A stretch of 25,594 bases of DNA from the IMG/VR virus record IMGVR_UViG_3300027965_000182, positions 1 through 25,594 of that record. One strand, given 5' to 3'. The notes beneath the pieces are model-generated. The model did not search any database. It had not been told where the DNA came from and was given only the letters and a program-made list of their open reading frames with translations. This document shows, one piece after another, positions 10,366-24,320 of this stretch (the stretch's first letter is position 1; each line of letters opens with the position of its first letter). Source of the stretch: a virus. Position numbers and translations under genes: made by a program.

Positions 10366-11580
10366 TTATCCGCCGAACACCTTCATCACCGCCGCCCTAC
10401 GCTGATCCGGAAACAGGTGCCGGTAGCGTTTTTGCATCTCCACAGTTGTGTGCCCCATCAACTCGTCGATCACCCGCTGGTCCACGCCTGACGCCGCCAG
10501 GTTCGATGCGAAGGAATGGCGGAAGGCGTGGTAGCCGCGGAGCACATGCCACTTCGACCCCTTGACGCCCATGAGGAACGCCTTCCACGTCTGGCCGTCG
10601 GTGAGCATCTGGTTTGCCTTGGAGCAGAATGCGAACACACCGCCCGGGTGAACCTCGGCGAAGTATTTCCGCATCACCGACTCGACGAACGGCGTCATAT
10701 CTACCGTCCTGAATGTCTCCCGTTCGCGGCTCCTCTTCTTCTCCCGAAGCAGAACCAACTTGGCATCGAAGTCGATGTCCTCAACCCGTGCCCGGAAAAG
10801 TTCGCTCCGCCTCGCTCCCGTGTGTGCGGCCGTGACGAGGAGCGGGTAGAGGTAGCGGGCGTTGGTCTTCCTACGAACGTGGGCGAGTACCTCGTCGATC
10901 TGTGCGGGGTCGAGGAACAGGCCGTCCCAAAGCTCGCGTTCCCGTCGGCGGTCCACTCCACCGCGGGCGAGGATGGCCTGAATCTGGTCGTAGGTGCGGA
11001 ATGGCTCCGGCTGTTTCTCCTTCGGAAAGACCAGCTCGACGGCCGGGAACTTGGTGGGGATGTGTCCCTGCCGGTTGGCCCAGTTCCAGACGAATCGCAG
11101 CGTGGCAACCGCCTTTCGCACCGTTTTCGGCTTGATGACCTGGCCGTTATGCTTCTCCCCACTCCTTGCATCGACGAACTGCTGGATCGTCGCAGCCGTG
11201 ATACTTGCCACCGGTGTGTCACTGCCGATAATCCGGGACAGGTGCTTCATGTGGATGTCTTCCATCTTCCGGGTGATGATCTCTTTCGCCCCGGCGGTGA
11301 ACTGCGACTGGTAAGTAGCGAACATCTCGGCAAGACGAACCGTTCGGGCGATCTCGACGGGCTTTTCGAGCTTGCCGTCGGATAGCAGGAAGAGACCGAG
11401 ATCGGCACCGTTTGGGACGGTCAGCCGGCCCCGCTCGACGAGCCGGAGATTCTCCTCCAGGCGGGCGAGGCAGCCGTCCGCTTCCTTCGGGTCTGACGCC
11501 TTCAGATTGACATGGAACTTCCGCTCGCGGAACCGGAACACGACACGAAACCGCTCTCCCCGCCGTTCAAGCCAGGCCAT
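10366..11580 (-). CDS. int: Tyrosine recombinase / phage-type integrase
   Basis: The 404-aa protein has a core-binding domain (about 80-175) and a full catalytic domain. All expected residues are seen: Arg257 in HTGARRSEL, Lys near 281, His351-x-x-Arg354 in HAFRHSF, His377 in MGHTT and the nucleophile Tyr386 in KRYRHL. It should cut and join DNA at an attachment site, driving integration and excision of the left element. ATG 11580 is chosen over 11631 because GGGAGG lies at good spacing before it and the N-terminus then starts MAWLERRGERFRVVFR, a common integrase beginning. The gene begins about 180 bases from the 3' end of tRNA-Ser, a classic integration target, and points away from it. Confidence 0.93.
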   Translation of the reverse strand: MAWLERRGERFRVVFRFRERKFHVNLKASDPKEADGCLARLEENLRLVERGRLTVPNGADLGLFLLSDGKLEKPVEIARTVRLAEMFATYQSQFTAGAKEIITRKMEDIHMKHLSRIIGSDTPVASITAATIQQFVDARSGEKHNGQVIKPKTVRKAVATLRFVWNWANRQGHIPTKFPAVELVFPKEKQPEPFRTYDQIQAILARGGVDRRRERELWDGLFLDPAQIDEVLAHVRRKTNARYLYPLLVTAAHTGARRSELFRARVEDIDFDAKLVLLREKKRSRERETFRTVDMTPFVESVMRKYFAEVHPGGVFAFCSKANQMLTDGQTWKAFLMGVKGSKWHVLRGYHAFRHSFASNLAASGVDQRVIDELMGHTTVEMQKRYRHLFPDQRRAAVMKVFGG

Positions 11581-11682
11581 CGCACAACCTCCCGAGAATT
11601 GTCGGGCGGAGGGCAAGCGATGCGACCCCAACGCAGGGCCAATGCTGCCCCCAAATTGCCCCCAAGCCTGGCGTTTGGGAAC

Positions 11683-11716: not shown

Positions 11717-11761
11717 GGAAATCAAGGGGTTTTTGCAGCGTTTCGACGTGATGCCAACTAG

Positions 11762-11849
11762 CGGAGAGGGAGGGATTCGAACCCTCGATACCCTATTCGG
11801 GTATATCGGTTTTCGAGACCGACGCATTCAACCACTCTGCCACCTCTCC
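11762..11849 (-). tRNA. tRNA-Ser(CGA)
   Basis: All arms of a class II tRNA fold: acceptor GGAGAGG/CCTCTCC, D-stem GCA/TGC, anticodon stem TCGGT/ACCGA around CTCGAAA (anticodon CGA), long variable arm TACCC/GGGTA, and T-arm GAGGG TTCGAAT CCCTC. The discriminator base is G and no CCA is encoded. It looks intact and functional. It sits between two tyrosine integrase genes pointing away from it. Its 3' half is a probable attachment site for the left element, but no second copy of the 3' end occurs in the window. Confidence 0.95.
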
Positions 11850-12016: not shown

Positions 12017-13297
12017 ATGGCTAAGTCTACCGGTTCGCACTCGTCTCGAAAAGCCCCGTCCAAACCCAAGAAGCCCTACCCCGATTTCCCGCTCACCCCC
12101 CACCCCAACGGATCTTGGGTGAAGAAGATCCGTGGCAAGATTCATTACTTCGGCAAATGGGCCGCGCGGGTCGATGGGGTTCTCACTCCTGTTCCTGGCG
12201 ATGGGTGGGAAGATGCCTTGAAGGAATACAAGGCTGTCGCTGATGACCTCCACGCGGGGCGAACCCCGCGCATCAAGGGCGATGGACTAACCGTCGCGGA
12301 CCTCTGCAACCGGTTCTTAACAGCGAAGCTCCGCAAGGTGGAAGCGGGTGAACTCACGCCGCGTCTGTTCGCGGAATACAAGGAAGTTGCCGTTTTATCC
12401 GCGAGTGAATTTGGTTCGAATCGCAGGGTGGATGACCTCGCGGCCGATGACTTCGGCGCTCTCCGTGCGGCAATGGCGAAGAAGTGGGGACCGGTGCGAC
12501 TTGGGAACGCCATCACTCGCACCAAGAGTATCTTCAAGTTTGGCTACGAGACCGGATTGATGGATCGACCCGTTCGGTACGGGCCGGAGTTCGTGAAGCC
12601 CGACAAGGCGGTTTTGCGAAAGCACCGCGCAAAGAAGCCACCGAAGATGTTCGATGCGGATGAACTCCGGGCGCTGATTGACGGCGCCCTAGTCGTCGGA
12701 GAGAGCGGGCCGGAACTGGTTCGGCCGGATGCAACCCAACGCGCGATGATCCTTCTTGGCGTGAACTGCGGGTTCGGCAACACTGACTGCGCTGAGATGA
12801 CCTTCACCGGAACCGATCTAGACGGCGGATGGATCGACTTCCCCCGGCCGAAAACCGGCATTGCCCGGCGCTGTCCACTGTGGCCGGAAACCGTTGCAGC
12901 GATCCGGGCTGCGGTCGCGAATAGACCGACGCCAGCGGACTTCTCAGAATGTGGTCGCGTCTTCCTGACGATCAACGGCAACGCATTCGTCACTCACACG
13001 CCAATCGAGAAGGCCGAAGACGGCACCCATCATGGGGGTGCACGAAAAGACCTTATCGGGATTCAGTTCCGCAAGCTGATCGATGCGCTGGGTATCCACC
13101 GCGAAGGAGTTGGCTTCTACGCACTCCGGCACGTCTTCGAAACAATCGCTGGGGAATCGAAGGATCAAGTTGCGGTTGATGTGGTGATGGGTCACACTGA
13201 TCCGTCAATGGCATCCAACTACCGTGAGCGGGTTGACGATTCACGGCTGCGGGCCGTGGTCGATCATGTCCGCGCGTGGTTGTGGCCTGTCACCTAG
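12017..13297 (+). CDS. int: Tyrosine recombinase / integrase with a non-canonical first catalytic arginine
   Basis: The 426-aa protein starts at ATG 12017 behind AGAGGTG. The N-terminal HPNGSWVKKIRGKIHYFGKW (29-48) is a planctomycete-style arm domain, and a core-binding domain follows (about 90-190). In the catalytic domain Lys279 (RPKTG), Arg371-His372 (YALRHVF), His393 (MGHTD) and Tyr402 (SNYRERV) are in place. Where other enzymes have the first Arg (TGxRxxE), this one has GFGNTDCAE with Asp257 three residues before the Glu, and the His of HxxR is Tyr368. Either another residue serves, or this is a divergent subfamily. It should mobilise the right-hand element. Confidence 0.88.
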   Translation: MAKSTGSHSSRKAPSKPKKPYPDFPLTPHPNGSWVKKIRGKIHYFGKWAARVDGVLTPVPGDGWEDALKEYKAVADDLHAGRTPRIKGDGLTVADLCNRFLTAKLRKVEAGELTPRLFAEYKEVAVLSASEFGSNRRVDDLAADDFGALRAAMAKKWGPVRLGNAITRTKSIFKFGYETGLMDRPVRYGPEFVKPDKAVLRKHRAKKPPKMFDADELRALIDGALVVGESGPELVRPDATQRAMILLGVNCGFGNTDCAEMTFTGTDLDGGWIDFPRPKTGIARRCPLWPETVAAIRAAVANRPTPADFSECGRVFLTINGNAFVTHTPIEKAEDGTHHGGARKDLIGIQFRKLIDALGIHREGVGFYALRHVFETIAGESKDQVAVDVVMGHTDPSMASNYRERVDDSRLRAVVDHVRAWLWPVT

Positions 13298-13826: not shown

Positions 13827-13906
13827 CCGGTATCGAACATCAACGCGCGACCCCAAACCGGATGCTTGGCGGCTGACGGTTGGGGAAGCAAAACACAAGG
13901 GGCTTA

Positions 13907-14185
13907 ATGCGTGCTGAAACCCTACTGACAAATTTGGCAAAAGTCAAGCCATCTGTCCCATCCTCTTCTGTTGAGATGGGCAACTCTCGGTTTCTTGTTC
14001 TGGACTCGTTCGACCTCGCGAGACTCCGCGCGGAGGTAATTCGCCTCGCGGCGGAACTTCGGCCGGGCAAGGGCGCCACCAACTTCGGGGTTACCCCAAA
14101 GTGGTATCGGGAGCGTGTCGCGTTTCTGGATTCACTCCGCGCGCGACTCGCGGCGGCGGCTGAAGCTACGGGGGTGGGTGCATGA
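13907..14185 (+). CDS. Hypothetical protein (92 aa) at the head of the replication operon
   Basis: ATG 13907 follows AAGGGG. The second half contains a helical, Arg- and Ala-rich segment (LRAEVIRLAAELRP, then YRERVAFLDSLRARLAAAAEA), and there is no membrane segment. The stop overlaps the start of the initiator gene (ATGA at 14182), so the two are coupled. It may assist replication or bind DNA, but this rests only on position. Confidence 0.6.
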   Translation: MRAETLLTNLAKVKPSVPSSSVEMGNSRFLVLDSFDLARLRAEVIRLAAELRPGKGATNFGVTPKWYRERVAFLDSLRARLAAAAEATGVGA

Positions 14186-15081
14186 ATGCCTTCACCTACC
14201 CTAAGCGGCCGAAGTGCTTTGCCTTCAAGTTCTGTCGGCTGCTCGCGAAGAAGACCGTAGCCAACGATATCGGCTCGCCCGCCTGCTGGCTGCTTACCGT
14301 TATTGCGATGACTGAAGACGCCCGCGGGTATACCGATCCTGTCACGTTCTATAACGAGCAACTTCTACCCCTCATCGGCGTTGGGTCGGTTGATGCGCTT
14401 GACCGCGTTCGTGCGAAGTGCATTGCGTCCGGCTGGCTGCAATACGAACCCGGCGCCCGTGGCCGGGCTGGGCGGTACTTTGTAACCGTCCCTTCCCATT
14501 GCAACCGAACTGATGACGCGCCAACAGATGAGGGTGAAGGGGCCGAATTGTTCCGCGAAAATGCGGAAGAAAGTGCGGATGATAGGCGACGATTCATCCG
14601 CAAAAATGCGGAAGCAACCGCGAGGAATGTGCGGAAGCAACCGCGAGGAAACCGCGGAACTCTCTTCCCTGTCCCTTCCCCTATCCCTATTGCGGGCCAT
14701 TCGCCCGCCGAACCAACCCCTGAGACGAAAGAGAAAACCAAGAAGCCGCGAAAGCGGAATCCGTTGTTCGATGTGCTTGTGATGGTCACAGGCGCTGATC
14801 CTGTTGTGAATGGATCGCACGTCGGCAGGGTTGCCGCACTGCTCTCAAAAGCCGAACGGCCATTCACTCCGGAGGAAGTTCACGACTTCGCTCATCGTTG
14901 GCGTCAACTATTGCCGTGGGCAAAGCCGAGTGAACACCCCCGGCTCACTCTGGGCATCATCGAAAAGCACATCTGCACAATCCGCGACTCACCAGAGCAA
15001 CCTAACGAAACACCGCGAGTGAAAACCGCAGCGGAAGTTCTTGCGAATCAAGACACCGACTTTGCACCAATGGGGGGCTGA
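14182..15081 (+). CDS. Phage-type replication initiator (lambda-O-like by layout)
   Basis: The 299-aa protein has an N-terminal domain (about 1-110) that looks like the winged-helix domain of phage initiators: SPACWLLTVIAMTEDARGYT, then VDALDRVRAKCIASGWLQYE, then GRYFVTVP. A charged, repetitive linker follows (about 120-160). The C-terminal domain (about 190-275, with TPEEVHDFAHRWRQLLPWAK) could contact the helicase. No family is certain; the role is inferred from layout. The gene is followed by a DnaB-type helicase, as lambda O is by P, and its middle carries an iteron array as in the lambda origin. Translation is coupled to the gene before it, and the helicase start lies five bases after the stop. 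Confidence 0.65.
   Translation: MNAFTYPKRPKCFAFKFCRLLAKKTVANDIGSPACWLLTVIAMTEDARGYTDPVTFYNEQLLPLIGVGSVDALDRVRAKCIASGWLQYEPGARGRAGRYFVTVPSHCNRTDDAPTDEGEGAELFRENAEESADDRRRFIRKNAEATARNVRKQPRGNRGTLFPVPSPIPIAGHSPAEPTPETKEKTKKPRKRNPLFDVLVMVTGADPVVNGSHVGRVAALLSKAERPFTPEEVHDFAHRWRQLLPWAKPSEHPRLTLGIIEKHICTIRDSPEQPNETPRVKTAAEVLANQDTDFAPMGG
14553..14660. repeat. ori: Iteron array, putative replication origin inside the initiator gene
   Basis: GCGGAAGCAACCGCGAGGAA occurs exactly at 14608-14627 and 14631-14650, 23 bases apart. The core GCGGAA(G/C) recurs at 14563, 14608, 14631 and 14654 (steps 45, 23, 23), with a weaker GCGAC at 14586 filling the gap. CCGC-N6-GCGG dyads start at 14553 and 14598. A period of 23 is not a multiple of three, so the two exact copies are read in different frames (AEATARN and RKQPRGN). 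Conservation is therefore at DNA level, as in initiator-binding iterons. Confidence 0.65.
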
Positions 15082-15085
15082 TCCA

Positions 15086-16417
15086 ATGGTTGCGGAACAT
15101 CCTGTTAGCGTATCGGACCTGCAAAAGGCAGCCGACACAGAACGCCACTTGCTCGCGGCGTGTTTCCGCTCGTGTGAGTACGACGGCTCCGGTCTGGACG
15201 ATGTAGCCGCGGTTGTCAGTCCAGGCGACTTCTCGGCTCTGGCTCACCAACTCGTATTCGGAGCAATGCTCGAACTCCGGGCGCGCTCGGCACCCGTCAC
15301 CGTTCACGGGGTCTTCGTTTACCTCCGCGAACGGAACCAACTGGCCGAACTCGGGTCTAACCCAGCGGTCTGGTTAGCGGACCTGTACGAAGCTGAACCA
15401 ACCGACGCCGCGGCGAGGTATTACGCGAACGTGGTCAAGGAACACTCCGGGTTCCGCGCCTTGAAGCGTGTGGCTTCTCAAATCGTGGCCGAAACCCAGC
15501 ACCCAACCGGCTCCGTCGCGGAGATCGCGGGCCGGTGCGAACGGCTCTTGCTGGACGCGACAGGCGACACGGCAACAGCCGGGCCGCGATCGGTGGCGGA
15601 ACTGATCGCGAACGAACTGGCAGACATCGACAACCGACGCGAGCGCGGGCCGGAAGGGGTGCCGACAGGGTTCCGCGAGGTGGATAGGTTGTTGAGCGGA
15701 ATGCGGCCAGGGCAACTGGTGGTGATCGGGGCGCGGCCAGCAGTTGGGAAGACGAGTTTTGCGCTCGGCATCGCAGCAAACGCGACTGCCGCGGGAACGG
15801 GAGTGCTGTTCTGCTCTCTGGAAATGACTAATGCAGAACTCACCCAGCGTTTACTATCGGCGAGTTCTGGTGTGCGTCTTCGCAATATTCGCGAATCGGA
15901 CATCAACCCAGAACAAGCGGGAAAACTGGTCGATGTTGGGGAAAGAATCGCCAAGTGGCCGTTGAAACTTGAGGACTGCCCCAACCTCACGGCTGATCGA
16001 CTCGCGGCAACCGCCCGCCGCGCGGTTCGGCGGAATGGCGTTCAACTCCTGATCGTGGATTACCTTCAACTACTCACCCCAGATAACCAACGCGAGAACA
16101 GGAACGCACAAATCGGACTCCTCGCGCGGCGGCTGAAGCTCCTCGCTCGCGAACTCTCGATTCCCGTTATCGTTCTGTGTCAACTCAACCGAGAGAGCGA
16201 GAACCGCGCCGATCCCAAACCGCGGCTCTCCGACCTGCGAGACTCGGGGGAGATCGAACAGCACGCCGACTGCGTGTTGCTTCTGTCCCCCCAACGCGGT
16301 CCTGCGGATGGTGCCCGAACCCTGATTGATTGCGGCGTCGCCAAGAACCGCAATGGGCCAACGGGAGAAGTTACCCTCGCTTTCACCGGGCCGTTGACCC
16401 GGTATGAGAACGCTTGA
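15086..16417 (+). CDS. dnaB-like: DnaB-type replicative helicase
   Basis: The protein has 443 aa, typical of the family. The N-terminal helical domain (about 12-125) begins with the DnaB-like DTERHLLAACF. The RecA-like domain carries Walker A GARPAVGKT at 215-223, SLEMTNAELTQRLL, Walker B LLIVDYLQLL near 312-321, the glutamine motif VIVLCQLNRESE and the DLRDSGEIEQHADCVLLL region. These are the hallmarks of the hexameric helicase that unwinds the fork. GGGGGG precedes ATG 15086. An element-borne helicase behind an initiator gene indicates replication independent of the host loader. Confidence 0.92.
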   Translation: MVAEHPVSVSDLQKAADTERHLLAACFRSCEYDGSGLDDVAAVVSPGDFSALAHQLVFGAMLELRARSAPVTVHGVFVYLRERNQLAELGSNPAVWLADLYEAEPTDAAARYYANVVKEHSGFRALKRVASQIVAETQHPTGSVAEIAGRCERLLLDATGDTATAGPRSVAELIANELADIDNRRERGPEGVPTGFREVDRLLSGMRPGQLVVIGARPAVGKTSFALGIAANATAAGTGVLFCSLEMTNAELTQRLLSASSGVRLRNIRESDINPEQAGKLVDVGERIAKWPLKLEDCPNLTADRLAATARRAVRRNGVQLLIVDYLQLLTPDNQRENRNAQIGLLARRLKLLARELSIPVIVLCQLNRESENRADPKPRLSDLRDSGEIEQHADCVLLLSPQRGPADGARTLIDCGVAKNRNGPTGEVTLAFTGPLTRYENA

Positions 16418-19606: not shown

Positions 19607-20542
19607 ATGGCCGTCCTTTCCGCAAACGTTCTGTACACCGGTCGAACCGCGACACTGACGTTTCTCCAGCGCCGCACCTACCAAGAGGTCTGGGAGGTGG
19701 TAGTTTCTTCATGGTTAGACAACGAACAGACGATTTACGCCGCGGGCGCCGTGCCCCTGCGCGGTCAATCATTCTCGCGCGATCCGCTGGCGATCGCAAC
19801 AGAATTGGAGTTCGTGCAAAGCGAGGAGAATCCGCTAATCTGGTACGTCACTGTCAAGTACGACAGTGAACCAGACTTTCCCGACTCCAAGATTGATGAC
19901 AAGGACCAAGATCCCACAGACGTTCCGGAAAATCCTCTTGAGCGTCCACCGATCTGGCGTATCTCGTTCGCGAAAGCGAATGAGGTAGTTCGACGTTGGA
20001 GGCCAGTGGATAACGCGGGAAATCTTTCGGCGAATTTTATTGCAATCCGCAACTCGGCAAAACTCCCATTCGACCCACCCGCGATGGCGGACTACTCGCG
20101 GCCGGTACTCCGCGTCACGAAGAACGTCCCCTCTGTGACCTTCGAATACCTCTTGGTGTTACAGGATGCAGTCAATGAAAAAAAGTGGCGTGGGTTGCTG
20201 CCGCGGCAAGCGCGCGTTGATGGTGTTGAGTCAGGCAACAAGTTTGAGAACGGCGTTGCGTACGTGGAACTCACCATTGACATCATGCTGAAGCGCGAGA
20301 CGTGGGACTTGCGATTGCTTGACCAGGGCGACGCGGAACTGGTTCAAACAGGTACTACCCCAACCAATCCTCCGGTTCCGATTTTCGAATGGCGGAAGTC
20401 TCGTGACGCATTGGGGAATTTCGGACCGTTTCCCCTGGATGGCAAGGGGAGGAAGCTCGATCCAAAGGCCGACCCTGTATTCCTACGCGGTCTTCCTGAA
20501 CACTACCACTTGCAGGACTTCAACGCGATCATGCCATTCTAG
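19607..20542 (+). CDS. Unknown protein of the structural-type run (311 aa)
   Basis: ATG 19607 follows CGGGAG. The 311-aa product is mostly beta-like, with many short alternating stretches (VTLTI-type patterns such as WYVTVKYDSEP and VAYVELTIDIML). It has an Asp-rich middle (SKIDDKDQDPTD) and no signal peptide. The pattern resembles phage baseplate or neck proteins. A gene for a tail-fibre-like protein follows after ten bases, so a virion component is possible. No named family is assigned. Confidence 0.65.
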   Translation: MAVLSANVLYTGRTATLTFLQRRTYQEVWEVVVSSWLDNEQTIYAAGAVPLRGQSFSRDPLAIATELEFVQSEENPLIWYVTVKYDSEPDFPDSKIDDKDQDPTDVPENPLERPPIWRISFAKANEVVRRWRPVDNAGNLSANFIAIRNSAKLPFDPPAMADYSRPVLRVTKNVPSVTFEYLLVLQDAVNEKKWRGLLPRQARVDGVESGNKFENGVAYVELTIDIMLKRETWDLRLLDQGDAELVQTGTTPTNPPVPIFEWRKSRDALGNFGPFPLDGKGRKLDPKADPVFLRGLPEHYHLQDFNAIMPF

Positions 20543-24234: not shown

Positions 24235-24280
24235 TTGGGCCTCTAATTCCTATTCGCTCGCGCACCAACGGAATTTTTTG

Positions 24281-24320
24281 GGAGAAATTGACCCAAGACG
24301 GGAGAAATTGACCCAAGACG
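24281..24320. repeat. Exact tandem duplication of a 20-bp unit
   Basis: GGAGAAATTGACCCAAGACG occurs at 24281-24300 and again at 24301-24320 without a mismatch or spacer. It lies between the ends of two minus-strand genes, in the upstream region of the 23398-24234 gene. A period of 20 is nearly two helical turns. It may be a doubled operator or a recent slippage event. Confidence 0.7.

Follow-up and report, generated by a model that had tools for sequence, protein, structure and literature searches.

A predicted replication origin within the initiator gene of a putative planctomycete phage

Identical stretches of DNA that are read in different frames of a single gene raise the question of what keeps them identical. 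Such repeats occur in the IMG/VR virus record IMGVR_UViG_3300027965_000182 (25,594 bases; classed as possibly a fragment), which was analysed over its whole length and is referred to here as the window. A reading of the sequence alone had interpreted them as a lambda-type origin. Our data make it very probable that positions 14551-14691 are the replication origin of a planctomycete phage or prophage, placed inside its own initiator gene. We infer that the initiator binds this region, that the duplex is opened and the helicase loaded there, and that the region is active as an origin.

From about 12 kb onward the window reads as a temperate phage. The phage-like part includes a tRNA-Ser(CGA) gene (11761-11849, minus strand) and a tyrosine integrase gene (12017-13297, plus strand); its other ORFs comprise an excisionase-like HTH protein, a prohead protease, a small terminase and a weak match to sigma region 4. 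The putative replication initiator of 299 aa is encoded at 14182-15081 on the plus strand (defined by its ORF, an AlphaFold model and structure matches), and, in the manner of an early phage operon, its ORF either overlaps the adjacent ORFs or adjoins them. Directly 5' of it, overlapping its start, the ORF list contains a small ORF (13880-14185, plus strand) without a match in Pfam and PHROG searches, for which a 45% identical counterpart, also 5' of the initiator, is found in the closest relative (L161). The helicase gene that had been noticed after the initiator was confirmed: a DnaB-type replicative helicase is encoded just 3' of the initiator ORF (15086-16417, plus strand; PF03796 with E=1.1e-78, PF00772 with E=5.6e-14, phrog_19 with E=1.9e-81).

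A second tyrosine integrase gene (10366-11631, minus strand), different from the first, lies on the other side of the tRNA gene, and this arrangement of two integrases around one tRNA suggests two integrated elements with a common attachment tRNA. ParB-like and VirD4/TraG-like ORFs, named by sequence resemblance only, are located left of the integrase pair. The window also carries a perfect 20-bp tandem duplication at 24280-24319 (GGGAGAAATTGACCCAAGAC), which is not part of the replication module and lies close to a hypothetical ORF on the minus strand.

Within the initiator gene, the core GCGGAA recurs at 14563, 14608, 14631 and 14654 with steps of 45, 23 and 23, as first described, and the four units are indeed translated in different frames (codon frames 0, 0, 2 and 1). 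Two exact copies with a step of 23 are present as well (TGCGGAAGCAACCGCGAGGAA), but they are 21 nt and not 20 nt long (14607-14627 and 14630-14650). The longest repeat in the gene did not exceed 14 nt in 1000 synonymous shuffles or 17 nt in 1000 codon-order shuffles, and this excludes chance as the source of the 21-nt repeat. The unit at 14586 had been considered degenerate; it exists, but as one member of a series of eight direct half-sites of the type GCGGA/GCGAC/GCGAG (14563-14659, plus strand) and not as a lone oddity. These half-sites start at 14563, 14575, 14586, 14608, 14620, 14631, 14643 and 14654 (steps 12, 11, 22, 12, 11, 12 and 11) and fall into codon frames 0, 0, 2, 0, 0, 2, 2 and 1. 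The series demonstrates that the real step is 11-12 bp: the spacing of 23 bp is there, but it represents a double unit, the basic unit being one helical turn (about 11.4 bp). Autocorrelation of the gene at lags 11, 12 and 23 was above that of all 2000 synonymous shuffles. Seven half-sites fall within 110 nt; elsewhere in the window no stretch of this length has more than four, and no other multi-copy array was detected there.

The array begins with an 18-bp inverted repeat (TTCCGC-GAAAAT-GCGGAA, 14551-14568), which is the best palindrome of the linker. A second one (ATCCGC-AAAAAT-GCGGAA, 14596-14613) belongs to the direct-repeat family D1 with a spacing of 45. Both have an A-rich centre, and each includes one half-site.

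The AlphaFold model of the initiator shows pLDDT values of 85-96 for about residues 11-100, mostly below 56 for the linker, and 73-87 for about residues 191-270. The predicted architecture thus consists of an N-terminal winged helix, modelled with confidence, a disordered linker and a small C-terminal domain. Based on the model and on conservation, the winged-helix domain spans about residues 10-104 (14209-14493, plus strand; modelled elements H32-47, E54-56, H58-65, H70-82, E86-89 and E97-101) and is the predicted reader of the iterons. The array had been placed in a linker-like part of the protein, and in the model the disordered linker does coincide with it. In Foldseek the model matched, at E 1e-4 to 5e-4, viral proteins whose names are replication initiator, replisome organizer or lambda GpO N-terminal. 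Weaker matches were the plasmid Rep-DNA complex 5kbj and the initiator 4pt7 (E 0.03-0.04, probability 0.99-1.0). No match to Pfam, PHROG (E<0.1) or NCBIfam was obtained for the window protein. Five relatives (L120, L128, L130, L158, L159) match phrog_678, 270, 391 or 345 with E values as low as 1e-30; these are replication-initiation or O-like families, matched mostly via the C-terminal half. The array-bearing gene is therefore predicted to encode an initiator with a DNA-binding domain, for the window protein on evidence that is entirely at the level of fold.

Pattern-based homologue searches returned nothing for the initiator, the helicase, the integrase or the phage ORF at 19607-20542 further downstream, and tblastn of the initiator against named phages and plasmids gave no match. 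Relatives were found by whole-genome searches in the class of an Isosphaeraceae genome that was reached with a 16S probe. In a sample of this class, 38 of 398 planctomycete genomes contain relatives of the initiator, the best being 59% identical, and one genome has several. A phylum-wide profile search matched five of 392 genomes, all of them already known, and added none. Since the relatives reside in planctomycete genomes, the host of the window is very probably a planctomycete as well. Across the homologues the winged-helix half is kept, the protein sequence of the linker is poorly conserved, and the C-terminal half has been exchanged between different domains. Tblastn detected a DnaB-type helicase downstream of the initiator in 12 of 20 neighbourhoods of relatives and no DnaB in the other eight; nine downstream proteins from five of the DnaB-less neighbourhoods had no helicase domain in Pfam. 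In these elements the supply of the helicase appears to differ, or its gene to lie elsewhere.

The genome with several members (G063 C1: L119, L151, L155, L157, L159) carries different arrays in them, and one duplicated member copy is interrupted by a stop codon. We read these members as several co-resident elements with distinct iterons. Two further genes, L133 (stop at the array end) and L202 (G042:C25), have a reading frame that stops inside the array or exactly where it finishes; both retain the N-terminal domain and L202 also the CCT-rich tract described below. They may represent split initiators or decayed copies.

Could the repeats simply be a by-product of neutral slippage or tandem duplication in an unconstrained linker? 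The disorder and the poor conservation of the linker would allow this, and the 21-nt pair, with its perfect and adjacent copies, would fit such events. The sequence-only reading had concluded from the identity of the copies that they are kept as DNA; that conclusion stands, but it has to be drawn from the family, because the identity of the pair alone could also reflect a recent duplication. We analysed a discovery set of 35 genes with a complete N-terminal domain and a held-out set of 11 genes fetched later, a total of 46 genes that share ancestry and are not independent. The homologues keep the repeats: in 32 of the 35 genes the strongest DNA repeat is located in the linker zone, which makes up about one quarter of the gene length. 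Mean autocorrelation of the 35 linkers peaks at 11-12, 22-24, 33-35 and 45 bp; the N-terminal and C-terminal parts of these genes give flat profiles. The held-out genes again gave peaks at 11-12 and 22-24 bp. Synonymous shuffles leave the protein unchanged; relative to this null, lag 11 was raised by 11 sd in the discovery set and by 4 sd in the held-out set, and lag 12 by 7 sd in both. None of the steps 11, 22 and 23 is divisible by three, so selection on the protein cannot produce this periodicity. The array is maintained as DNA across the family.

The word that is repeated varies strongly: GTGCGGA in the window, L119 and L120, AGCGGGAGAGA in L122, ACAACGGGAACC in L144, and others in other genes. 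Considering these large differences, the common step is unlikely to result from simple inheritance of sequence. The repeats also co-vary with the N-terminal domain, as linker k-mer sharing correlated with N-terminal identity (Mantel r=0.36, reached in 0 of 2000 permutations), a correlation that partly reflects shared ancestry; the same comparison with C-terminal coding DNA gave r=0.17. Slippage would neither hold a step of 11-12 bp with divergent units throughout the family against synonymous shuffling, nor link the repeat unit to the N-terminal domain, nor put the same tract after the array in different frames (see below), and we regard it as very unlikely. Palindrome enrichment in the linkers is weak on average (6.8 versus 6.5 pairs of 9); palindromes with at least 8 pairs of 9 occur in 10 of 35 linkers and in 1 of 70 control stretches. 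In homologues a leading palindrome is often located 23-36 nt into the linker. Two genes, L149 and L154, combine a C-terminal domain of the window type with an unrelated N-terminal half and a different linker. The linker of L149 has its own GTTAC-type repeats, which suggests that iterons travel with the DNA-binding domain.

A constraint on the mRNA instead of the DNA, such as hairpins or a pause or attenuation signal, would be in agreement with the slightly better folding of the region compared to shuffles (z = -2.4; 3 of 200 shuffles were as good). The palindromes alone already yield hairpins, however, and the arrays of some relatives are near-pure direct repeats (e.g., L122 with period 11, L144 with period 12) that form no common RNA structure. 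Since helical phasing is meaningful for duplex DNA only, a signal in the mRNA is a most improbable cause of the pattern.

Maintenance as DNA suits an origin, and the DNA next to the array supports this reading. Directly at the downstream end of the array starts a pyrimidine tract of the form (NNNCCT)n (CTCTCTTCCCTGTCCCTTCCCCTATCCCTATT, 14660-14691, plus strand), a predicted unwinding or single-strand element with CCT at 14668, 14674, 14680 and 14686 (period 6). For the window this run of four CCT at period 6 has P=0.02 versus synonymous shuffles. Runs of at least three were found in 19 of the 35 homologues, whereas 0.67 are expected from synonymous shuffles, and in 24 of 46 when the held-out set is included, in all three reading phases (16, 5 and 3). 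Where the tract is read as xPxP, proline is encoded by CCT in 87 of 120 cases (73%), compared to 73 of 669 (11%) elsewhere in the same genes; for this count the stretches were chosen by the protein pattern (xP)3 and not by CCT runs. Other genes translate similar DNA as SLSL. The occurrence in all three frames and the bias for CCT codons demonstrate that the tract is kept as DNA, while the bias among the frames allows some contribution of the protein.

Averaged over the family, duplex stability has its minimum at the junction of array and tract (-1.40 versus about -1.56 kcal/mol per step, in an average anchored by pyrimidine content and not by stability). The AT-rich unwinding element that was to be looked for beside the array may have a counterpart in this local minimum, but with a GC content of about 53% versus 62% the DNA around the tract is moderately, not strongly, AT-rich. 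The tract region is likely to be the unwinding site. A G-quadruplex on the purine strand was also considered and dropped, because several relatives have CC steps only.

The array might also act as an autoregulatory operator or copy-control site, at which the initiator blocks transcription into the helicase gene. Repeated protein-binding sites within an early operon would likewise be maintained at the DNA level and change together with the DNA-binding domain, and the leading palindromes resemble operator sites. The normal place of an operator is, however, a promoter and not a position about 370 nt into a gene, and neither the long helically phased arrays nor the conserved (NNNCCT)n tract and the downstream stability minimum are explained by this function. 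We therefore consider an operator in place of an origin unlikely, although the two roles of the array could co-exist.

For the origin that we favour, we propose the following sequence of events, in which initiator binding, melting and helicase loading are modelled on lambda and SPP1 (PMC5043065, PMC7466680, PMC6316719). Initiator dimers would seed on the two 18-bp palindromes, and the winged-helix domain would bind the ladder of half-sites, which are spaced by about one turn of the DNA. From there the initiator could extend over the half-sites on a single face of the helix as far as 14659, so that downstream the bound array would face the weakest duplex, that of the (NNNCCT)n tract. Strain would be released in this weak tract (14660-14691), which would open, and the initiator or the helicase would probably be held on one strand. 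The phage's own DnaB-type helicase, supplied by the next gene, would then be loaded at the opened tract.

If this holds, dozens of origins are predicted for phages of the planctomycete phylum, and the same layout with differing repeats constitutes a natural experiment. Because the layout recurs with different repeat sequences, comparisons among the elements can test for a code between winged-helix residues and iterons and for the role of the tract. In the tract a DNA signal clearly shapes a protein, since similar DNA is translated as xPxP in one frame and as SLSL in another.

Origins within initiator genes are already known from lambda and from oriL of SPP1; for planctomycete phages, our searches of open-access papers retrieved none that describes such an origin. 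The designation as lambda-type is correct for the architecture, but neither for ancestry, as similarity to lambda O is not detectable (hhalign probability 0.1, E 0.54), nor for the layout of the iterons. Like lambda O and ori-lambda (and lambdoid Stx-phage origins), the window has iterons in the middle of the gene, here followed by a predicted unwinding region; the initiator gene has 900 bp in both, with the lambda iterons at nt 349-433 and the array at about nt 370-478. The 18-bp palindromic sites with an A-rich centre in lambda resemble the two sites described here. In lambda, however, four such palindromes follow each other with steps of 20, 24 and 23, whereas the window has two palindromes 45 bp apart and half-sites every 11-12 bp; lambda autocorrelation peaks near 23-24 and not at 11-12 bp, unlike the planctomycete family. 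In lambdoid origins a higher or lower number of iterons lengthens or shortens the protein (PMC7466680). The lambda origin contains a 40-bp A+T-rich region (PMC5043065), in place of which a pyrimidine (NNNCCT)n tract is found here, and lambda obtains DnaB from its host through P, whereas the window element encodes its own.

The Bacillus phage SPP1 carries direct repeats and a DUE inside its initiator gene (gene 38/oriL) and encodes its own DnaB-family helicase (PMC6316719). Repeats within the initiator gene and an own helicase of this family among the phage replication genes are thus common to both. SPP1 differs by a second origin (oriR) and the helicase loader gp39, neither of which is seen in the window, and tblastn in the phage collection revealed no sequence match to the window initiator. 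O-like or 'primosomal protein I' initiators of Pseudomonas, Xanthomonas and Acinetobacter phages (phrog_270, 391, 678) have a C-terminal 'FWxxYP' domain in common with part of the family, but their N-terminal domain has no tblastn match to it. Among six O-like initiators of other phages, intragenic repeats were present in some and a (NNNCCT)3 tract in none. Two Pseudomonas phage genes (L212, L217) show GGTGCAA-type repeats with a 22-bp step and palindromes in their 'primosomal protein I' linker, which are likely to be unannotated intragenic origins.

Iteron plasmid origins and DnaA-trio/13-mer DUE origins also place phased initiator sites beside a repeated unwinding element that can be bound as single strand (PMC5043065, PMC10797057). 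Helically phased sites next to a repeated element are shared with the window; the units of these origins are longer and their DUE is AT-rich, whereas the array here is intragenic and followed by a C/T-rich tract that repeats every 6 nt. It is conceivable, though we would put it somewhat below an even chance, that planctomycete phages use a distinct grammar, in which half-sites of about 11.4 bp are rewritten for each DNA-binding domain and combined with a widely shared, strand-biased (NNNCCT)n tract for sequence-specific single-strand opening or helicase loading, which would constrain the encoded protein and act as an analogue of the DnaA-trio for a non-AAA+ initiator.
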